This document shows, piece by piece, positions 3,816 to 35,420 of a stretch of DNA of 36,746 nt. The notes under the pieces were generated by a model. It searched no databases. It saw nothing but the letters and a program-made list of their open reading frames with translations, and was not told the DNA's origin. The stretch covers positions 1 to 36,746 of the IMG/VR virus record IMGVR_UViG_3300009428_000003; one strand, 5' to 3'. The position numbers were made by a program, and so were the translations under genes. Numbering within the stretch: the stretch's first letter is position 1; every line of letters starts with the position of its first letter. This stretch comes from a virus.

Positions 3816-4883
3816 TTATACACTTGTTATTTTTTCCCATGCTGAACCAGTCCAAACAAATTTTTTGTTTAATGTTGTATCAAAACATTCAAAACCCTTC
3901 TCAGCGGTTCCAAAAGTTGAAGAAGAGTTAACTCTCCCAGTCGTTGTCATTGCAATATTTGCAAAGAATTTTTGCTGAGAAACGTTTGTGCTTGGTGGGT
4001 ATAGTTGAAACAATGCTTTTGCATTCGCGGATAAAGGTTTACCAATCGCGAAACCAGTAACGTTCATGTACGATAAACCACCAGTTCTATATTTTATAAA
4101 AGCAGTGTTTGTATTGTCGAACATTTGGAAGTTTGGCACTCCACCTTGATAAAAAAGAGTAAAAATTTTGTTTGCGGTTCCTGGTCTATATGAATTAAAA
4201 CCACCGTTTATAGTAAATTCAGTCGAAGTTGTGTTGTCATTGTTTAAAAATTTCGCGATTACTGATTCGTTATTTGGATTTCTAAAAGTATGCCCTGCCG
4301 TATTTAAATAAGTACCCCCGTAACCGATTTGTCCGTTGTTTCTAATGTCTAATAAATTACTGTCATTAGAATCAGTAACCTTAAATCCCGTTGTTCCTTC
4401 TGCATTGTTTGATGCTTTTATTAATGTGTCTTTTTGTAGACTTATTTTTTCAGCTCCGATTGGCGCGGTTCCTCCAAGCGTCCACCTGAATGAAGACAAA
4501 TCAGCATAATGTGAACCGTCAAAAGTCAAATTCGCGCTTGCGATATTATCACCGCCCGTGATGTCCGACAACAACGCAATTGTTCCCGAATTGTCTGGAA
4601 AGTCCCAAGAACGACTTCCCGTTAACGTAAGCGAATCAAGAACACCAACGAACGAACCGCCTTTGTTGTATTTGATATTATCACCGTCTGTGATGTCAAT
4701 TGCAAAACCGCCCGTTGTGTTTCCCGTTCGCAATGTCGTTGACAATCCGTTTGCTAAGGTGTCAAGAATATTGACCAACAATCCGTTATGGTCGGACGGT
4801 TGAATTGCGTCGTTTGGTTGTAAATCATTCAACAACGTGTTCATTGCGATGTTTACATTTGCCCTATTAAGTAAATCAGTCAT
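3816..4883 (-). CDS. Tail fibre protein
   Basis: This 355-residue protein is dominated by Asn, Thr, Gly and Ser. Its N-terminus (MTDLLNRANVNIAMNTLLND) is helical and could attach it to the tail tip. The middle has beta-helix-like segments such as WDFPDNSGTIALLSD. The C-terminus GFECFDTTLNKKFVWTGSAWEKI is the ending seen in many fibre proteins (G.ecfDTt, then W.G..We.i). It follows the 824-residue tail protein by 11 bases. The role in host recognition is inferred from composition, ending and context. Confidence 0.85.
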   Translation of the reverse strand: MTDLLNRANVNIAMNTLLNDLQPNDAIQPSDHNGLLVNILDTLANGLSTTLRTGNTTGGFAIDITDGDNIKYNKGGSFVGVLDSLTLTGSRSWDFPDNSGTIALLSDITGGDNIASANLTFDGSHYADLSSFRWTLGGTAPIGAEKISLQKDTLIKASNNAEGTTGFKVTDSNDSNLLDIRNNGQIGYGGTYLNTAGHTFRNPNNESVIAKFLNNDNTTSTEFTINGGFNSYRPGTANKIFTLFYQGGVPNFQMFDNTNTAFIKYRTGGLSYMNVTGFAIGKPLSANAKALFQLYPPSTNVSQQKFFANIAMTTTGRVNSSSTFGTAEKGFECFDTTLNKKFVWTGSAWEKITSV

Positions 4884-13684: not shown

Positions 13685-14256
13685 TTTTCTTCGATTGTTA
13701 CTGTTAAATTAAATTTGAAACCCGCATAAGGATAAGAAAAAAACTGTTTGTCAATTTGATTGAATGAATAATTTGAATAAATTGAATCTATATCTTCCTC
13801 GATTGAATTGATGTTCAATTCCATTCCTATAGAACCGCCGTTTGTCAATTTGTCCCGAACTTCTTTTTTCAATTGTTCCGTGAAATAATAATTCGCGCCC
13901 TTTACAGAATCAATCTGACGTAAGTTGACCCAAACGATCAAACCAAGATCAACATCGTAAAAATTAGATGTGTTGCGTTCATATTCGCCGTTGATCGTTT
14001 GTGTTCCAACCTCAAAAAACGACATCGCTTGTAAATTGTCATTAAATTCAACGGAATAATATTCACCGCTTGATTGATACACCATCGGCTCGCGATATTC
14101 CTCCCCGTTTCGATTCGTCACTTTTATATATGACCGCCCGAATGAATGCGTCAACCAAGTCAACGATCCGACAAGGTTTTGAAGTTTAGCAATTGCCACA
14201 TCAATGAAAACGGGATTTGGCGGGATTGGAACGGTTGGATTCGCGTATGAACTCAT
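13672..14256 (-). CDS. Head-tail joining or tail terminator-like protein
   Basis: This 194-residue protein has a helical N-terminus (FIDVAIAKLQNLVGSLTWLTHSFGRSYIKV) and a mixed alpha/beta remainder. It lies between a gp10-like completion protein and the tail chaperones, the usual place of tail terminator or tail completion proteins. No diagnostic motif is visible. It is unlikely to be an enzyme. The name rests on gene order, and the call as a structural protein is safer than the exact role. Confidence 0.72.
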   Translation of the reverse strand: MSSYANPTVPIPPNPVFIDVAIAKLQNLVGSLTWLTHSFGRSYIKVTNRNGEEYREPMVYQSSGEYYSVEFNDNLQAMSFFEVGTQTINGEYERNTSNFYDVDLGLIVWVNLRQIDSVKGANYYFTEQLKKEVRDKLTNGGSIGMELNINSIEEDIDSIYSNYSFNQIDKQFFSYPYAGFKFNLTVTIEENCTL

Positions 14257-22874: not shown

Positions 22875-23246
22875 TTATTCTTCGTCGCTTAGTGCATCAT
22901 TTAATTTCTTTGAAACCTTGATTTCCAATTGTCCCGAATTAATATTTTCATTCAATGTCTTTTCAAAATAACCACGATTCTTTCCTTTGGTTTTCAAAAA
23001 GAAAATTGTTGAAGCGGGATTCCCCCCTTTGATTTGTTTATGCAATTGAGATTCCGCGAAGTCCAAAACAACATTTTCAATGTCATCGGCTTGTTTTTTG
23101 AATTCTGGATCATTGTTGTAATAATCATAAAAAGTCGAGCGATTAAGGCCGACAATCTTGCAAGCCGTTGTTATAACGCCAAGACATTTTTCCATCGCTT
23201 CAAGCAATGCTTTTTTATTATGTTGGGTTTTGATGGTCTTATTCAT
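22875..23246 (-). CDS. terS: Terminase small subunit
   Basis: This 123-residue protein has an N-terminal helix-turn-helix (residues about 13-45: LLEAMEKCLGVITTACKIVGLNRSTFYDYYNNDPEF) followed by helices for oligomerisation and GNPASTIFFLKTKGKNRGY, a common segment of phage small terminases. It recognises phage DNA and presents it to the large subunit encoded 2 bases downstream. The start overlaps the methyltransferase gene by 8 bases. Confidence 0.92.
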   Translation of the reverse strand: MNKTIKTQHNKKALLEAMEKCLGVITTACKIVGLNRSTFYDYYNNDPEFKKQADDIENVVLDFAESQLHKQIKGGNPASTIFFLKTKGKNRGYFEKTLNENINSGQLEIKVSKKLNDALSDEE

Positions 23247-24444
23247 TGATCCAGGTTTCTTTTGTTATGTCTTCGCCGTTTCTTTTTACCGTGAATTTTC
23301 TGTTGTTGTCAGTCATGTATTTGACCCACCGTTTCACAATAACGTCGCAATATTTCGGATCAAGTTCTTGTCCGTAACATTTGCGATTCGTTTGTTCCGA
23401 TCCAATCAATGTCGATCCACTTCCAAGAAACAAATCAAGAACAACGTCATTTATTTCAATTATGTTTTCAATTGCCATCTTAGAAAGTTCAACGGGTTTT
23501 TGTGTTGGATGCAAGTACTTATTTGCTCGGTCTTTTACTACTGACCAAACACTCCCAATTCGTTTGCCTTTTATTTCTGCGCCTCTGTGATAAACTAAAG
23601 CAACTTCAAAATCTGTCACAAATGTTTTTTTCAAATCTCCGATTCCACCGCCCCCTTTATCCCAAATTATAATATTTGACAAATCTCCAATTGGATCGCA
23701 AAATTCAATCCATTGTTTCAACACTTTCCAAGAAGTCCAAACAAAAACAAAACCTTTTGAGCAAAGATGTAAGTTATTAATCCACTCTGTGACAAAAACA
23801 TCGTCATTTTTTAAAACTTCGAACTTTTCGGATTTTTCTCTCATGTTTGACTGATACGAAACACCATAGGGAGGATCAGTGAAAACCATGTCCGCTTTTT
23901 TACCGTTCATTAATTTTTCAACCGCGTCAATTTCCGTTGAACTCGCGCAATGAACTCGATGTCCGTTCAATTCGTAAAGATCGCCAAGAACCGTTTTTGG
24001 TTCGGTTGGAAGTTCACCGTTGAAATCGTCTTCTTCTGGCGCGTCAATTTCTGTGACAACGTCTTCAAAATATTCATTATCAAAACCCCAATCAATCAAA
24101 TCGTCTTGATCGAAATATTCAACTAAAAGTTCTTTGTCAAATTCACCCGTGTTTTTATTCAATCGAACATTCAATTCTTTTTCTTGGTCCAGGTTCAAAT
24201 CAAGTTCAACGCAAGGCATTTTTTTGAATCCCATTTCGCGGGAAACTTTTGTTCTTTGGTGTCCTCCAATTATAATCCCAAATCTTTCTTTGTTTGTGTT
24301 GACAATTACGGGATCAACCAAACCGAAACGACTGATTGAATCTTTTATTTTTTGCTTTTGTTCTTCTGATAATTTTCGCGGGTTGTATTCGGCTGAAATT
24401 AGTTTGTCAATATTCCATTCGACAATCTTCAAGTTGCTTTCCAT
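23239..24444 (-). CDS. ParB-like/DNA methyltransferase fusion
   Basis: This 401-residue protein has an N-terminal ParB/Srx-like domain at about residues 8-85 (NPRKLSEEQ, GLVDPVIV and IIIGGHQRTKVSREMG). A DNA N4/N6-methyltransferase follows, with the DPPY catalytic motif at 190-193 and the AdoMet-binding FLGSGS at 339-344. DPPY before FxGxG is the beta-class order. Such fusions are frequent next to phage terminase genes and probably methylate phage DNA to evade host restriction or mark packaging sites. It is the first gene after the iteron region and has a consensus promoter; its stop overlaps terS by 8 bases. No partner nuclease was seen, so it appears to be an orphan. Confidence 0.94.
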   Translation of the reverse strand: MESNLKIVEWNIDKLISAEYNPRKLSEEQKQKIKDSISRFGLVDPVIVNTNKERFGIIIGGHQRTKVSREMGFKKMPCVELDLNLDQEKELNVRLNKNTGEFDKELLVEYFDQDDLIDWGFDNEYFEDVVTEIDAPEEDDFNGELPTEPKTVLGDLYELNGHRVHCASSTEIDAVEKLMNGKKADMVFTDPPYGVSYQSNMREKSEKFEVLKNDDVFVTEWINNLHLCSKGFVFVWTSWKVLKQWIEFCDPIGDLSNIIIWDKGGGGIGDLKKTFVTDFEVALVYHRGAEIKGKRIGSVWSVVKDRANKYLHPTQKPVELSKMAIENIIEINDVVLDLFLGSGSTLIGSEQTNRKCYGQELDPKYCDVIVKRWVKYMTDNNRKFTVKRNGEDITKETWINE

Positions 24445-24470
24445 AATTCGATAACTCTTTTCGATTCATT

Positions 24471-24501
24471 CAAATATAACTATTTAGATCGAATTATCAA
24501 A
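24471..24501 (-). promoter_or_regulatory. Consensus promoter of the methyltransferase-terminase operon
   Basis: Minus strand TTTG (24501-24498), a 19-base spacer and TATATTTG (24478-24471) match the Bacteroidota consensus exactly. The start codon is 27 bases downstream of the -7 box. TGACGC repeats begin 2 bases upstream of the -33 element, a suitable place for an activator or repressor. Confidence 0.8.
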
Positions 24502-24503
24502 AG

Positions 24504-24849
24504 TGACGCATAGAAACCCGAAATGACGCTTATGTGACGCTTAGACCCGTTTTTTGACTTAAAGTTTTACTTCAATCCGTCTACCCCTAATTACCTCTTT
24601 ATTAGTTCTTTATATCTTTATTTCTCTTTTTGACGGCTAAAAACAGTAAAAATAAAAGAAAAGGAAAAGAGAAATACAAAGTATAAAGGGTAATAGGGAA
24701 AAAATAAGCGTCAACGCGCCTGCGATATAGTGATAGCCGAACGCGAACCCCTTGACGGGTCATTTTTTAAGCGTCACGAATCGACCTTGTAAGCGTCATT
24801 TGATCAAAAACAAGGCAAAAAAAACGCCACCTTCAAAAAGTGACGCTTG
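24504..24849. repeat. Iteron region A (candidate origin or operator)
   Basis: Seven TGACGC-type 9-mers occur here: TGACGCATA 24504-24512, TGACGCTTA 24524-24532 and 24535-24543; inverted TAAGCGTCA at 24705-24713, 24768-24776 and 24790-24798; and TGACGCTTG 24841-24849. Between the two groups are ACTTCAATCCGTCT (24569-24582), TTCTTTATATCTTTATTT (24606-24623), TGACGGCTAAAA from 24631, and a purine/pyrimidine-asymmetric AT-rich tract to about 24705. The same elements, with the same 23-base and 7-base gaps, recur at 31.6-31.8 kb. This fills the only gene-free stretch over 300 bases (24445-24870), together with the promoter and a terminator. Confidence 0.8.
24817..24848 (-). terminator. Rho-independent terminator at the end of the early region
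   Basis: On the minus-strand transcript AAGCGTCAC (24848-24840) pairs with GTGGCGUUU (24830-24822), including two G-U pairs. The loop has 9 bases and a run of eight U follows (24824-24817). The wobble pairs make it specific to minus-strand RNA. The stem includes the last TGACGC repeat. It lies 22 bases after the stop at 24871. Confidence 0.78.
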
Positions 24850-24870
24850 ATTTGACTTGCGTTTTTAATT

Positions 24871-29168: not shown

Positions 29169-31544
29169 TTAAAACGGTAAACTTAATCCGTCGCGCGTTA
29201 TTGGATTGATTTCGGTCTTGATGTAACAACCGCGACGCGGTGTCCTAAATGGTTTATATTCGAAGCCTTTAAAATCACAATACTTTTTGACCCAACTCGA
29301 AAACAATTTGTTTGTCATCGATTTTCGAGAGTCTGGATATTCTTCTTTGAATTCGTTCACTATTTCCGACGGGTAAATTTTGCAATCTAATGAAAGATTG
29401 TCATCCGTGACCCAATCCCAAAATTCTTTGGATGTGTTTTGAATGAATCGTTTTGCGTTCGCGTTGATTGATTCCGTACAGATCAAACCAAAGTTCAAAA
29501 ACTTTTGAAGACATTCAATCATGTATTGATCGAAGGAAACCCAATCGTCAAGTTCCCACTGATCAAACAAAAGTTTTCCAAATTCTGTCAAAGGTGTTCG
29601 ATGTTGGTTGAAATATTGAAAAAATTCAACTTCGAATCGTCTTCGATCATGCGATGAACCTGCACCATTTATCACATAATTCGTTGTAATTACTATTTTA
29701 GGCGACTTTTCGAAAGGTATGAATATTTCATCCTTGTTTTTCCTATTCACGGATATTCCTTCAGTAATTAACGAAAACAATGATTCGAAGTTGAACTTTT
29801 TCTTTACATCGTCAAACGCCAGGATTTGAGTATCAACCGAAATTCGTTGATAATTGAACTCCCCTTTGTTTGGATCAAAAACCTTTCCGTCAATCTTGAC
29901 CATCTTTTTGAATTGTGAAAGTGCGGTCAAAACTAAACTTTTACCGCTCCCCCCGTTCGGATGGTCGTTGATTTCTTGATCATTGAAAATGATTGCTTTT
30001 TGATCAGTCTTGTCTTTGTGTGATGACATCAAATATCCAAGAACCGTTTCCATTGTATTGATTCGTTTCGGATCGTCTGCACAAACCCGCTGAACAAATG
30101 AACGAAAGTCATTTTCAACCGTTTCGGATTCGATAAAATTACGCTTGATTATTTGATCGTCCCAAATGTAACCGTCGCAATCTATAAATTCAAGCAACTT
30201 TTTATTGTCTTTTTGAACCTCAACAACCCCGTTTTGATAATAAAGAAAACATTTGTCTTTCGTGTCCTGGATCATTTCAAGGTCGATCGAATCCAAAAAA
30301 GACAAATATAAATCTTGAAAATATTTTGTTGATGACGCGAAGAAATTCCAAATTTTCAATTCCTCTTTGTCAAAAAGATAATTCAAAACGAAATCTTTAA
30401 TTTTTTGCGCTGAAGATGTTTTTACGATATTCGAACTAATATGAACAAAAACGGGCGAATCGGCTTTTTCTGGATAATATTTGTAAAAACCCGAAGTTTC
30501 TAAAAAGTGTTTAAACAAAATGTTGTCGATCACGATTCTTTGACCCGTCTTCCCCTCAATGATTTGCCAAAAAACAATTTCCGTTGAATTCTCTTTGATG
30601 TGTTTGATCGTTTCATCGTCAACCGTTGGAGTCGCTTTTTTTATTTCTTCAGACGAAACGCCTTTTTTGACTTGCAATTCAATCTTTCGGAATGTGTCGC
30701 GGTCCTCGAAATACTTTGTCCCGTGTTCGTTTCGTTTCTTGTATGCTGAACGAACGGTTGTTGTTATTTCGTGTTCCTTCATTGAACCTCGAACAACGTC
30801 GTGAATGATAATCGATTCCGCAATGTCTTGATTGATTCCGTAATTGTTCAACGATGAAGCCAAAATAAATAGGTTGTTGTTTCGGTTTCCGTCAACAAGA
30901 TCGTATTCACGATTCCACCAAACAAGAAGCCGATCCGAAATTTGCTTTGTATCTTCCAAGATAATTTGTGGAGCGCGTTCGAAAAACGAATACCCTTGTT
31001 CAGAATGTTTTTTTGTCCATTCCTTTGAATCATTATTGATGAATATTGTTGGATCGTAAGATTCGTAACAAACGCGCGAAACATTTTTGCAAGACGTGTC
31101 AAAATATTCACAATCGAAATGTTTTTCCAATGCGGTGAAATAAAGTTTGTGTTCTTCTTTGTCGCATTTCGGAATCTTGACAATCATTTTCAAACCGTTT
31201 CCGCTTGGTGATGTAAAGACCGACATTGTAAATTCGGACGCTTCCAAAGTATCGCGCCACGTTTGAAAGATTTCATCGTTTGGGAAACCGTCAAAATCAA
31301 GACAAATCAAACCCGAATGTTCTTCAAGTGCGTCGTCTTTTCGTTGGTTGAATTTACCCGAAAACAAAAAACACGGTAATTTCTTTTTAAGATCGTTTCG
31401 TTTTTCTTTGTCGGTTTCGTTTCTGATTGATTCTAAAAGTTCTTTTGATGAACCGTTTTTGATTCTTGTGAAGACCCGTTCCACATCTAAGTGAAACGCC
31501 CCACATTTCGGATTGAATAAATCCTTGTAACAAGTTATAGTCAT
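29169..31544 (-). CDS. VirE_N-type primase / SF3-like helicase fusion
   Basis: This 791-residue replication protein has an N-terminal VirE_N/BT4734-like primase-polymerase domain (about 40-175) containing LDFDG with Asp83 and Asp85 and SPSGNGLKMIV (112-122). A helical linker with NRNNNLFILASSLNNYGI (about 220-238) resembles PriCT regions. The C-terminal helicase has Walker A GGSGKS (531-536), Walker B-like AFDDV (576-580) and a sensor Asn in VITTNYV (618-624). It would prime and unwind at the phage origin. It is the first gene downstream of iteron region B. Confidence 0.92.
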   Translation of the reverse strand: MTITCYKDLFNPKCGAFHLDVERVFTRIKNGSSKELLESIRNETDKEKRNDLKKKLPCFLFSGKFNQRKDDALEEHSGLICLDFDGFPNDEIFQTWRDTLEASEFTMSVFTSPSGNGLKMIVKIPKCDKEEHKLYFTALEKHFDCEYFDTSCKNVSRVCYESYDPTIFINNDSKEWTKKHSEQGYSFFERAPQIILEDTKQISDRLLVWWNREYDLVDGNRNNNLFILASSLNNYGINQDIAESIIIHDVVRGSMKEHEITTTVRSAYKKRNEHGTKYFEDRDTFRKIELQVKKGVSSEEIKKATPTVDDETIKHIKENSTEIVFWQIIEGKTGQRIVIDNILFKHFLETSGFYKYYPEKADSPVFVHISSNIVKTSSAQKIKDFVLNYLFDKEELKIWNFFASSTKYFQDLYLSFLDSIDLEMIQDTKDKCFLYYQNGVVEVQKDNKKLLEFIDCDGYIWDDQIIKRNFIESETVENDFRSFVQRVCADDPKRINTMETVLGYLMSSHKDKTDQKAIIFNDQEINDHPNGGSGKSLVLTALSQFKKMVKIDGKVFDPNKGEFNYQRISVDTQILAFDDVKKKFNFESLFSLITEGISVNRKNKDEIFIPFEKSPKIVITTNYVINGAGSSHDRRRFEVEFFQYFNQHRTPLTEFGKLLFDQWELDDWVSFDQYMIECLQKFLNFGLICTESINANAKRFIQNTSKEFWDWVTDDNLSLDCKIYPSEIVNEFKEEYPDSRKSMTNKLFSSWVKKYCDFKGFEYKPFRTPRRGCYIKTEINPITRDGLSLPF

Positions 31545-31567
31545 TGTAATATTTTAAAGTTGCGGTT

Positions 31568-31799
31568 TAAATATAACATTTTTTTATTCATTTGTGACGC
31601 TTAAATTCTGTTTATGACGGGTCATTGACGCTTAAACTTTTAAAGTATCACTTCAATCCGTCTGGTCTTAACTGTCTATTATTTACTTCTTTATATCTTT
31701 ATTTTTTATTTTGACGGCTAAAAAAAAGAAAAAGAATAAAAAATAAAAAAGAAAAAGAATAGAAAGAAAGCTAATAAGGAAATAAGCGTCAATGCGTCA
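31568..31799. repeat. Iteron region B (candidate origin or operator)
   Basis: TGACGCTTA occurs at 31595-31603 and 31626-31634, inverted TAAGCGTCA at 31783-31791, and a shorter TGCGTCA at 31793-31799. ACTTCAATCCGTCT (31650-31663), TTCTTTATATCTTTATTT (31687-31704) and TGACGGCTAAAA from 31712 match region A with identical internal gaps. A purine/pyrimidine-asymmetric tract of about 60 bases follows. TGACGGGTCATT (31615-31626) is also shared with region A (24753-24764). A weak -7-like TATATTTA (31575-31568) lies before the primase gene. The right end touches the stop of the DnaA-like gene. Confidence 0.8.
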
Positions 31800-32219
31800 T
31801 TTTGTTAATTCTTGATTGATCTTGTCCAGAAATTCCATTGTTGGCGTGTAACAAGTATCGACATCGTTTTGAATCTTTTTGTTTGAGTGCGTCACGGTTG
31901 AATGATTGATCTTCATAAAATCACCGATTGCGTTGTTTGACAAACTTGTATGTTTTCGCGCGTAATGACAAAACATTTGACGAATCCAAAGAATCTGTCT
32001 GTCTTTCGACGTTCTTATGCTTTCGCGGTCGATTTTAGCGACTTTAGAAAAAGTTCCGAGTATTGACACCAAACTATTGTTTGAATGCTTTAAATCGCGT
32101 TCTTTCATCAATAAACCGTGTGCGTCATCAAAGTTCAAACCCCGCTTTGATAATAAATGAATGAATCGCATATCGGATTTGGTATAAATCCCGCTAATCA
32201 CTTTATTTTTTTTATTCAT
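31797..32219 (-). CDS. DnaA domain IV-like DNA-binding protein (putative initiator)
   Basis: In this 140-residue protein, residues 71-120 resemble the C-terminal DNA-binding domain of DnaA: RQILWIRQMFCHYARKH, then SLSNNAIGDFMKINHSTVTHSNKKI, where HSTVTHS matches the DnaA signature (usually DHSTV.HA). No ATPase domain is present. Stand-alone DnaA-C-like proteins occur in Bacteroidota phages. It probably binds the TGACGCTTA repeats, which begin at its own stop codon, and may start replication or regulate the flanking operons; the target is inferred. The gene is followed by the primase-helicase gene. Confidence 0.87.
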   Translation of the reverse strand: MNKKNKVISGIYTKSDMRFIHLLSKRGLNFDDAHGLLMKERDLKHSNNSLVSILGTFSKVAKIDRESIRTSKDRQILWIRQMFCHYARKHTSLSNNAIGDFMKINHSTVTHSNKKIQNDVDTCYTPTMEFLDKINQELTK

Positions 32220-32233
32220 TTTTATATATAAAA

Positions 32234-32572
32234 TTAAATTATCACAAACATTCTTTTGACCAAATCCAACGAATGATGATATTTGTATTTTCGATTAAAC
32301 AACATTTTGATATTTGTCTTTCCAGAATGTTTTGTGAAGATTTGCGAAGATTTTATTTGTCTTTGAAACCCACCTTCAACAATCACAACGCCGTCTTTGA
32401 TATCAGCTGGAAAGATTGGATCGAAACGGATTGACATCACGTCAGCCGTTTCCCCAATAACACCTTCAATCAATCCGATCATTTCTTGTTTGATTTCCCC
32501 TTCTTTTAAATTTGCGACAAATACAACATCGCCTGGAAGCGGTTTGTCGTTTCTTATGTTAAAATGTATCAT
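32234..32572 (-). CDS. Unknown early protein
   Basis: This 112-residue protein starts at the ATG at 32572; a TTG at 32605 would increase overlap with the exonuclease gene. It is beta-rich (LPGDVVFVANLKEGEIKQEMIGLIEGVIG) with a basic C-terminus. There is no known family. Its place between the exonuclease and the DnaA-like initiator suggests a replication or recombination accessory. Confidence 0.7.
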   Translation of the reverse strand: MIHFNIRNDKPLPGDVVFVANLKEGEIKQEMIGLIEGVIGETADVMSIRFDPIFPADIKDGVVIVEGGFQRQIKSSQIFTKHSGKTNIKMLFNRKYKYHHSLDLVKRMFVII

Positions 32573-33005
32573 TTGCAATTGCTTCGTTTGTGTTAACTTT
32601 TTCAATAAACTTCAATAATTTTGTTTTGAATTCGTTTATTTCGTTGCTCCAATCTTCGCGCGTCACCGTTATAATGTGAAGCGGTCGCGAAATATATCTT
32701 GGATCATAGGAAACAAAATACATTGTTTCAATCGTGTCCACTATTGTGAAATAATGCAAAAGTTGTTGTTTATATTCAGCGGGAACGCGGTTTGTTATAA
32801 TGTATTCAATATGTTTTTTTGAATCTGGACACTTTACTTCAACCCCTTCCGTCGGAATTTCTTGATCCATTATCAAACCGTCGGGCGATAAATGGCAATT
32901 CGGAAAGTTTTCGTTTGTTACCATTCCGAAATGTTCAACATCAAGTTCCATGAAGTCGCGAAATTCAGCGATTGCAATTGGTTCAAGATCGATCCCCCTT
33001 TGCAT
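32559..33005 (-). CDS. YqaJ-type exonuclease, C-terminal fragment
   Basis: The frame is open from 33044 (W T N I I E D S F, and so on) and its first ATG is at 33005. It holds the catalytic half of a lambda-exonuclease/YqaJ nuclease: GIDLEPIAIAEF, CHLSPDGLI with the metal-binding Asp, GVEVKCP with the Glu-x-Lys pair, and PAEYKQQLLHYF. Joined to the N-terminal fragment by one added base near 33044 it gives about 207 residues, the usual family length. The enzyme digests one strand of duplex ends for annealing-type recombination. It overlaps the following gene by 14 bases. Confidence 0.85.
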   Translation of the reverse strand: MQRGIDLEPIAIAEFRDFMELDVEHFGMVTNENFPNCHLSPDGLIMDQEIPTEGVEVKCPDSKKHIEYIITNRVPAEYKQQLLHYFTIVDTIETMYFVSYDPRYISRPLHIITVTREDWSNEINEFKTKLLKFIEKVNTNEAIANDTF

Positions 33006-33181
33006 CGCTTCCGAAACAAATGAATCTTCAATGATGTTCGTCCACGTTCAGCAATTAGTTCATACATTAAACTTGTATTTGTGGACGAAACAACTTTTTT
33101 CGCTCGTGTTCCTCCGATTGAACCTTGTCGGATTTTATACCAATCTTCAGTTCTTTGTTCTAAGTCTTTATGCAATTTCAT
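32918..33181 (-). CDS. YqaJ-type exonuclease, N-terminal fragment
   Basis: The ATG is at 33181. Residues 1-46 (LEQRTEDWYKIRQGSIGGTRAKKV, then MYELIAER) are the typical start of YqaJ-like recombinases, with the QRTEDW..IR.G motif. After the CGT codon at 33046-33044 the frame becomes nonsense until its stop at 32918, while the -1 frame continues with the conserved family sequence. There is no slippery heptamer at the switch. A one-base deletion or sequencing error is the simplest reading. It overlaps the upstream gene by 14 bases. Confidence 0.82.
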   Translation of the reverse strand: MKLHKDLEQRTEDWYKIRQGSIGGTRAKKVVSSTNTSLMYELIAERGRTSLKIHLFRKRCKGGSILNQLQSLNFATSWNLMLNISEW

Positions 33182-34995: not shown

Positions 34996-35223
34996 TTATT
35001 TTATTTGATAATGTGGGCAATCTCTCCAAGATGACCAATTTCCGCCCCATGAAATTTTGACACCTTCCAACGCTCCCGCTTCAAGAATAACCGACGCAAC
35101 TTTGTAAAAAAGAAAATCTTGTTCGATTGATGGCATTTCGTAAAAGTTGATCCCTTTAATGTACGGAATAACGTCAATCGCAAAACCGCTTTGATGCTCC
35201 GACTTTTTTCGAATCCATCGCAT
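34996..35223 (-). CDS. Endolysin, M15-type endopeptidase, C-terminal fragment
   Basis: The conserved part starts at KKSEHQSGFAIDVIPYIKG, the SxHxxGxAxD zinc motif of VanY/M15 peptidases. It ends with ISWGGNWSSWRDCPHYQIK, the WGG.W...D..H motif carrying another zinc-binding His. The ATG at 35223 is probably not a true start, because the preceding residues belong to the other frame. Joined to the N-terminal fragment with one more A at the A6 run (35204-35209), it gives about 141 residues. It would cleave peptidoglycan stem peptides at lysis. Confidence 0.85.
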   Translation of the reverse strand: MRWIRKKSEHQSGFAIDVIPYIKGINFYEMPSIEQDFLFYKVASVILEAGALEGVKISWGGNWSSWRDCPHYQIK

Positions 35224-35420
35224 TTTGAAACGCCATCTAAAAACAATTTGTTTTGTTGGTCGGCGGTCCTAATTCCACCCATCCAGGGAATAGTAATGTC
35301 GATACCGTCTTTTTTGCGTGACATTATTCGAATAGCGCGAAACAACACCCGAATGATTCGAGGATCAACCCCGTCCATTCTTCTTATGCTTGTTTGTCCC
35401 CATTGGAATTTTTTCGACAT
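35001..35420 (-). CDS. Endolysin, M15-type endopeptidase, N-terminal fragment
   Basis: The ATG at 35420 starts MSKKFQWGQTSIRRMDGVDP, followed by GGIRTADQQNKLFLDGVSKCDG (about 48-69), the normal beginning of phage L-alanyl-D-glutamate-type M15 peptidases. After residue 72 (about 35205) this frame loses family similarity, while the -1 frame continues with the zinc motifs. The open frame happens to run on to 35001, but that tail is not meaningful. It lies 28 bases after the holin-like gene. Confidence 0.83.
   Translation of the reverse strand: MSKKFQWGQTSIRRMDGVDPRIIRVLFRAIRIMSRKKDGIDITIPWMGGIRTADQQNKLFLDGVSKCDGFEKSRSIKAVLRLTLFRTLKGSTFTKCHQSNKIFFFTKLRRLFLKRERWKVSKFHGAEIGHLGEIAHIIK

Follow-up and report, generated by a model that had tools for sequence, protein, structure and literature searches.

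Two intergenic regions of an uncultivated phage genome share a set of short direct and inverted repeats, and one of them is located between the gene for a DnaA-like protein and the gene for a primase-helicase. This raises the question of whether these regions are replication origins and which of the two neighboring proteins reads the repeats. The stretch of DNA analyzed here, the window, comprised all 36,746 bp of the IMG/VR record IMGVR_UViG_3300009428_000003, with the main genes on the minus strand. The regions and genes of interest are as follows.

23239 to 24444, minus strand: gene for a ParB_N plus N6_N4 methyltransferase, the first gene after region A
24445 to 24870, minus strand: region A, the duplicate of the iteron region, preceding the methyltransferase-terminase operon (0 of 100 shuffles)
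29169 to 31544, minus strand: gene for a 791-residue primase-helicase with a BT4734-like_N domain, a weak PriCT_1 match and a D5-type helicase fold; the proposed iteron reader and initiator
31545 to 31796, minus strand: region B, the iteron region flanked by the genes for the DnaA-domain-IV protein and the primase-helicase; candidate origin and promoter (0 of 100 shuffles)
31797 to 32219, minus strand: gene for a 140-residue stand-alone DnaA-domain-IV protein (PF08299)

Iteron regions and putative promoters of the window

The word TGACGCTTA had eight exact matches in the whole record, and all eight were inside the two intergenic regions: in region A at positions 24524 and 24535 on the plus strand and 24705, 24768 and 24790 on the minus strand, in region B at 31595 and 31626 on the plus strand and 31783 on the minus strand. 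The shared repeats of the original prediction are real. The “seven” copies counted there for region A were these five plus TGACGCATA at 24504 and TGACGCTTG at 24841, and the “about four” of region B were the three exact copies plus TGACGGGTCA at 31615. When one mismatch was allowed, 19 matches to TGACGCTTA were present in the whole record compared to 5.75 expected, which none of 100 shuffles reached. Both regions had 31 same-strand 10-mers in common, with a mean of 0.38 and a maximum of 4 after shuffling. The sites were arranged as follows.

24504 to 24543, plus strand: promoter-side phased iterons of A, TGACGCATA at 24504 and TGACGCTTA at 24524 and 24535, spacing 20 and 11 bp
24569 to 24642, plus strand: conserved core of A, blocks ACTTCAATCCGTCT, TTCTTTATATCTTTATTT and TGACGGCTAAAA starting at 24569, 24606 and 24631, gaps of 23 and 7 bp
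24705 to 24798, minus strand: inverted iterons of A at 24705-24713, 24768-24776 and 24790-24798
24841 to 24849, plus strand: outer iteron variant TGACGCTTG of A
31595 to 31634, plus strand: promoter-side phased iterons of B, TGACGCTTA at 31595, TGACGGGTCA at 31615 and TGACGCTTA at 31626, spacing 20 and 11 bp
31650 to 31723, plus strand: conserved core of B, the same three blocks starting at 31650, 31687 and 31712, gaps of 23 and 7 bp
31783 to 31791, minus strand: inverted iteron of B, adjoining the stop codon of the DnaA-domain-IV gene

The 20-plus-11 spacing of the three promoter-side sites was identical in both regions, and the previously described gaps between the three blocks were exact in both. 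Region A was about 150 bp longer than region B, and this surplus held three additional sites. A strand-asymmetric tract had also been described; in region B the coding strand contained 17 T in 20 positions, which was found in 0 of 200 shuffles. This tract is real in the window but not universal among the relatives, since it was significant in about one third of the representatives. A CTTATTA element beside the first site was likewise dropped as a universal component, its occurrence being limited to the window and several relatives.

On the minus strand, both arrays are closely followed by a −7 box of the Bacteroidetes type.

24471 to 24501, minus strand: putative Bacteroidetes-type promoter of A, TTTG-N19-TATATTTG, assigned from the sequence
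31568 to 31575, minus strand: putative −7 element TATATTTA of the primase-helicase promoter

Other genes of the window were compared with those of a close relative, L011. The N- and C-terminal parts of the ParB_N-methyltransferase (23239-24444) were near-identical to those encoded at 10976-12226 in L011, and the middle part was wholly different; the divergent middle begins directly after the DPPY motif and looks like a swap of the target recognition domain. A YqaJ-type exonuclease, which is a single intact 207-residue open reading frame in L011 (1150-1773), is divided in the window (32559-33181) into two overlapping open reading frames of 87 and 148 residues in different frames, either by a frameshift or by an assembly error. 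Two overlapping open reading frames in different frames at 34996-35420 resemble one split peptidase- or endolysin-type gene.

Conservation of the array among relatives

Loci were collected by alignment-led scans, three on viral contigs and one on genome contigs, in addition to earlier single-protein scans. This yielded 243 loci in which a primase start was present; in 188 of them, a DnaA-domain-IV gene was located not more than 1 kb upstream. Close relatives keep the regions, and L011 possesses both A and B. The order of DnaA-domain-IV gene, iteron region of about 200 to 500 bp and primase-helicase gene was found in 121 non-identical loci. Counting of k-mers with one mismatch was too weak to score the repeats, and a Poisson score was used instead. 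In a first set of 67 regions, made up of gaps between the DnaA-domain-IV and primase genes (region B of the window among them) plus region A, 59 contained a repeated word matched by 0 of 100 dinucleotide shuffles; in the larger set, 107 of the 121 non-identical gaps passed at 0 of 50 shuffles. Repeats were present in 3 of 80 control intergenic gaps, one of these being the second array itself of locus L036, and in 0 of 65 coding stretches.

Motif fitting gave TAAGCGTCA for the window, AACCGCCAA for L013 and L029, ATCGTCAC for L037 to L058, TTTGCGTCAT for the L066 group, AACTTGTCAT for the L072 group, CGTTACAA plus CGCGACAAA for L061 to L074, AGTTGTCACG for L100, TACCGGAAT for L101, TCGTAGTGA for L098, and further words elsewhere. 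The repeat words vary by lineage and the layout is broadly kept. At the DnaA-domain-IV end, an inverted site is typically located near the stop codon and a pair of sites about 8 bp apart follows 65 to 90 bp into the gap; at the primase end, forward sites are spaced by 10 to 11 or 20 to 21 bp. These phased sites end just upstream of the promoter in most relatives, and among 51 gaps, 42 had the motif TANNTTTR within their final 110 bp, compared to 9.5 expected.

A second array was carried by the window, L011 and L036, in the last case directly 3' of the gene for the large terminase subunit. A search of whole records of relatives, each with its own word, gave a single array per genome unit, which indicates that the second copy is a lineage-specific duplication.

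Two other records contained more than one array. In G013 (37,405 bp), loci L140 and L141 hold one and the same iteron array with unchanged internal spacing; the two copies are separated by 27,842 bp and each has a primase match beside it. This contig probably extends beyond one full length of a genome of about 27.8 kb that is circular or terminally redundant. Locus L208 contains two unlike arrays, CAAGTTGGC 13 times within 500 bp upstream of the primase gene and a different word, GACGCAAA, three times after its DnaA-domain-IV gene.

Candidate readers of the repeats

The 140-residue protein had been described as a stand-alone DnaA domain IV, and this assignment was confirmed by its match to PF08299 (1e-10), by comparison of the family profile with 1J1V (3.5e-14), and by an AlphaFold model (pLDDT 86) that matched 1J1V with a TM score of 0.87. 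The match covered domain IV only; the AAA+ domain III is absent and the N-terminal half of the protein is helical. No close homologues were found by tblastn among named phages, and the literature searched, with subscription papers mostly outside the search, yielded no account of phages that encode DnaA domain IV as a stand-alone protein. The repeat is also, as predicted, unlike the classical DnaA box. Variants of TTATCGTCA come near TTATCCACA, yet 28 of 300 shuffled boxes matched equally well, so that the resemblance is not significant and an interpretation of the repeats as diverged DnaA boxes was rejected. DnaA boxes of the type TTATNCACA were not enriched, with 4 in 238 kb near the gene versus 25 in 718 kb elsewhere.

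Short repeated words were also seen in two other records that encode such proteins. The unrelated G+C-rich contig L020 contains GACCACA eight times in about 165 bp (317-480) and also encodes a stand-alone DnaA-domain-IV protein (4064-4477). L018 (MW202828.1), the sole record of the annotated phage collection that matched the primase nearly over its full length, encodes two DnaA-domain-IV proteins and possesses three DnaA-box-like ATCCACA sites at 14086-14123.

The original prediction had named the DnaA-domain-IV protein as the reader of the repeats and had proposed a comparison of orthologues for co-variation of repeat and protein. This comparison was done in three non-redundant sets of 51, 31 and 29 loci, and the repeats tracked the primase-helicase instead. 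Iteron similarity was correlated with primase identity with r values of 0.57 to 0.71, and of 0.55 to 0.69 (P ≤ 0.001) as partial correlation given the DnaA-domain-IV protein, in Mantel tests on non-independent pairs, which provide less than a full phylogenetic correction. Once primase relatedness was controlled, the DnaA-domain-IV protein did not co-vary with the repeats (partial r of −0.13 to −0.24). An SNF2-like helicase gene, available as a control in 6 loci only, was replaced by two commoner neighboring genes. The association with the primase given these two widespread genes was 0.26 to 0.48 (P = 0.001), and the control genes themselves were not associated with the iteron given the primase.

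Single pairs of loci gave a similar picture, and the repeat was common to phages whose primases were almost identical and whose DnaA-domain-IV proteins had 30 to 40% identity. When the primases were at least 95% and the DnaA-domain-IV proteins less than 45% identical, the iteron was the same in 83% of the pairs (n = 35), and 28 pairs had a common iteron at less than 40% identity of the DnaA-domain-IV proteins and at least 85% identity of the primases. L037 and L039, for instance, share the iteron with 94% identical primases and 37% identical DnaA-domain-IV cores. L098 and L150 possess unrelated iterons (TCGTAGTGA versus TTTGCGTCAT), DnaA-domain-IV proteins about 94% identical over the full length and primases 68% identical; as the recognition helix or its vicinity holds four of the seven differences between these DnaA-domain-IV proteins, the pair by itself does not settle the matter. 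The pair L070 and L072, with near-identical DnaA-domain-IV proteins and different majority iterons, was discarded as weak because both words co-occur in most of the arrays of this group. Among 31 loci without an adjacent DnaA-domain-IV gene, the array was upstream of the primase gene in 17 (0 of 40 shuffles) and beside a DnaA-domain-IV gene in only 2. No DnaA-domain-IV gene was detectable in the approximately 9 to 10 kb of upstream sequence examined in L038, L103, L116, L113 and L120.

Array and primase can also separate, as indicated by L142, which combines a CTTGTCAT array with a primase 95 to 96% identical to TGCGTCAT-type primases; this case is tempered by the occurrence of both words in most of these arrays. 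The L142 gap is a mosaic, with both ends like L144 and the center like L072, indicating recombination inside the origin region.

The co-variation suggests the primase-helicase, and not the DnaA-domain-IV protein, as the reader of the repeats, and the reader originally proposed is probably wrong. A DnaA-like gene beside an array is no evidence that its product reads this array, and an easy misreading is thereby corrected.

Among 32 members of the primase-helicase family, BT4734-like_N was found in all 32, PriCT_1 in 31 and DUF5906 in 9. The protein carries a Walker-type GGSGKS motif. A search of PDB sequences with the single primase gave no match. The structural model (pLDDT 85.5) had its best fold match in the SaPI5 primase-helicase 7OLA (E value of 1.7e-12), followed by the ASFV PrimPol and then poxvirus E5/D5. 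Two candidate recognition domains were predicted from the model.

29217 to 29462, minus strand: predicted C-terminal winged-helix-like domain, residues 695-776
30525 to 30701, minus strand: predicted winged helix, residues 282-340

Segment-wise co-variation gave a weak signal for residues 301-360 plus 671-710 and 731-780, which overlap both predicted winged helices; the segment partial r was 0.14 to 0.18 for residues 282-340, and the analysis favors neither domain. A single residue (417 or 297 in L072 numbering) as specificity switch was suggestive in 25 loci and is not claimed because both iteron words co-occur in most of these arrays.

Proposed function of the regions

It is fairly probable, in our judgment, that region B is the replication origin of the phage and, simultaneously, the promoter region of the primase-helicase gene, with the iterons being read by the primase-helicase, region A being a duplicate, and the DnaA-domain-IV protein being a fast-exchanged accessory encoded beside the origin. 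Like SaPI Rep or P4 alpha, the primase-helicase would be an initiator of the D5 type that loads itself, and it would contact the iterons through one of its winged-helix domains, residues 282-340 or 695-776. Binding to the phased sites may lead to loading of the helicase at the AT-rich center and to local priming, and could also autoregulate the adjacent promoter. Region A, the whole element duplicated at the start of the methyltransferase-terminase operon, may serve as a further origin, as a partner site similar to crr, or as a copy with a regulatory role. Of the original interpretation, the resemblance of both regions to iteron origins is retained and the DnaA-domain-IV protein as reader is not. 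The GC skew had no turning point at A or B.

SaPI Rep and SCCmec Cch2 use a C-terminal domain to recognize the iterons located beside their own gene, and the helicase activity of Cch2 requires the iteron (PMC7581432). In P4, the alpha protein uses a winged helix to bind the repeats of ori and also carries out unwinding and priming (PMC4234260). SaPI Rep, SaPI5 and Cch2 share with the window a fused or linked primase-helicase and multiple short intergenic iterons beside the helicase gene, and the SaPI5 protein is the best match of the modeled phage protein among solved structures. In the window, primase and D5/SF3-type helicase are in one protein, the array is beside the gene of this proposed initiator, and iteron and proposed initiator diversify together among the relatives, which may also result from linkage. 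The SaPI and SCCmec arrays are located downstream of the gene (PMC7581432), whereas the phage array is upstream and abuts the primase-helicase promoter; moreover, the phage system has a BT4734-like AEP N-terminal domain, an exchangeable DnaA-domain-IV neighbor, a phage genome as its context and, in the window, a second copy of the array. A further difference from the class of SaPI Rep, Cch2 and P4 alpha is the large number of words, each specific to a lineage, on a grid that stays broadly constant. The simplest reading is that the primase-helicase of the window works like this class.

The P4 ori and crr are separate sites, and the two distant repeat regions of the window recall this pair; as in P4, one protein would be expected to bind the repeats, to unwind and to prime. 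To our knowledge, P4 is without a DnaA-domain-IV neighbor. In contrast to the phage protein, the P4 primase is of the Toprim/DnaG type (PMC4234260), and a second array is not general among the relatives of the window. By analogy to P4, region A may be a partner site, with a second origin or an operator being equally possible. DnaA-oriC has in common with the window a neighboring gene homologous to DnaA domain IV (1J1V) and short repeats plus an AT-rich tract, but here the AAA+ domain, DnaA boxes and a co-variation of repeat and protein are absent. The pRN1-type AEP-helicase replicons and phage BIP-1 also combine an AEP primase, an SF3-type helicase and a winged helix in one protein, but are proposed to use a stem-loop and not iterons (PMC4234260).

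Alternatively, the DnaA-domain-IV protein may be the iteron-binding initiator, with the primase-helicase being recruited afterwards. Its gene is directly beside the array in most loci (the 188 of 243 mentioned above), the protein has a genuine DnaA DNA-binding fold, and an initiator gene adjoining its own iterons is the classical layout of a replicon. This possibility is nevertheless unlikely: the iteron did not co-vary with this protein given the primase, the 28 pairs keep the iteron despite strongly diverged DnaA-domain-IV proteins, the arrays stay at the primase gene where the DnaA-domain-IV gene is missing or elsewhere, and the protein has no AAA+ domain and the repeat is not a DnaA box. 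A similarly low probability is assigned to purely regulatory arrays, which would serve as operators for switching between early and late transcription of the primase and methyltransferase-terminase operons, with no role as origin. Phased sites ending just before the promoter in most relatives and the position of both window copies at the head of operons would agree with such operators. Most relatives, however, possess a single array at the primase gene only, the second array of L036 directly follows the gene for the large terminase subunit, and the central pairs, inverted sites and AT-rich core would be superfluous for a simple operator; the initiator-type fold of the co-varying protein also favors an origin.

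It is also quite unlikely that a host factor or another phage protein reads the array, with array and primase gene staying together only through joint inheritance and with recombination occurring mostly between the array and the DnaA-domain-IV gene. The physical linkage of array and primase gene, which could mimic co-adaptation, is the main caveat of the preferred reading, and DnaA-domain-IV alleles were clearly exchanged, with the L142 gap itself being a mosaic. The neighboring control genes, on the other hand, did not follow the iteron given the primase, and a host factor would leave the many unrelated iteron sequences in one family unexplained.

With the primase-helicase as the preferred reader, a wider picture may be drawn tentatively, and it is rather doubtful in all its parts together: an undescribed large replicon family of Bacteroidota phages, with a D5-type initiator, an iteron “code” that diverges by lineage on a broadly fixed grid, a repeatedly swapped DnaA-domain-IV protein that would have no part in reading the origin and may serve its adaptation to the host, for instance by engaging or competing with the host initiation machinery, and region A as a second origin or crr-like enhancer. 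The conserved yet exchangeable DnaA-domain-IV neighbor poses a testable question. The sequence now allows an origin to be predicted for considerably more than one hundred loci of uncultivated phages, and the many natural pairs of primase-helicase and iteron provide material to study DNA recognition by D5-type initiator helicases, to which SaPI Rep and poxvirus D5 also belong.
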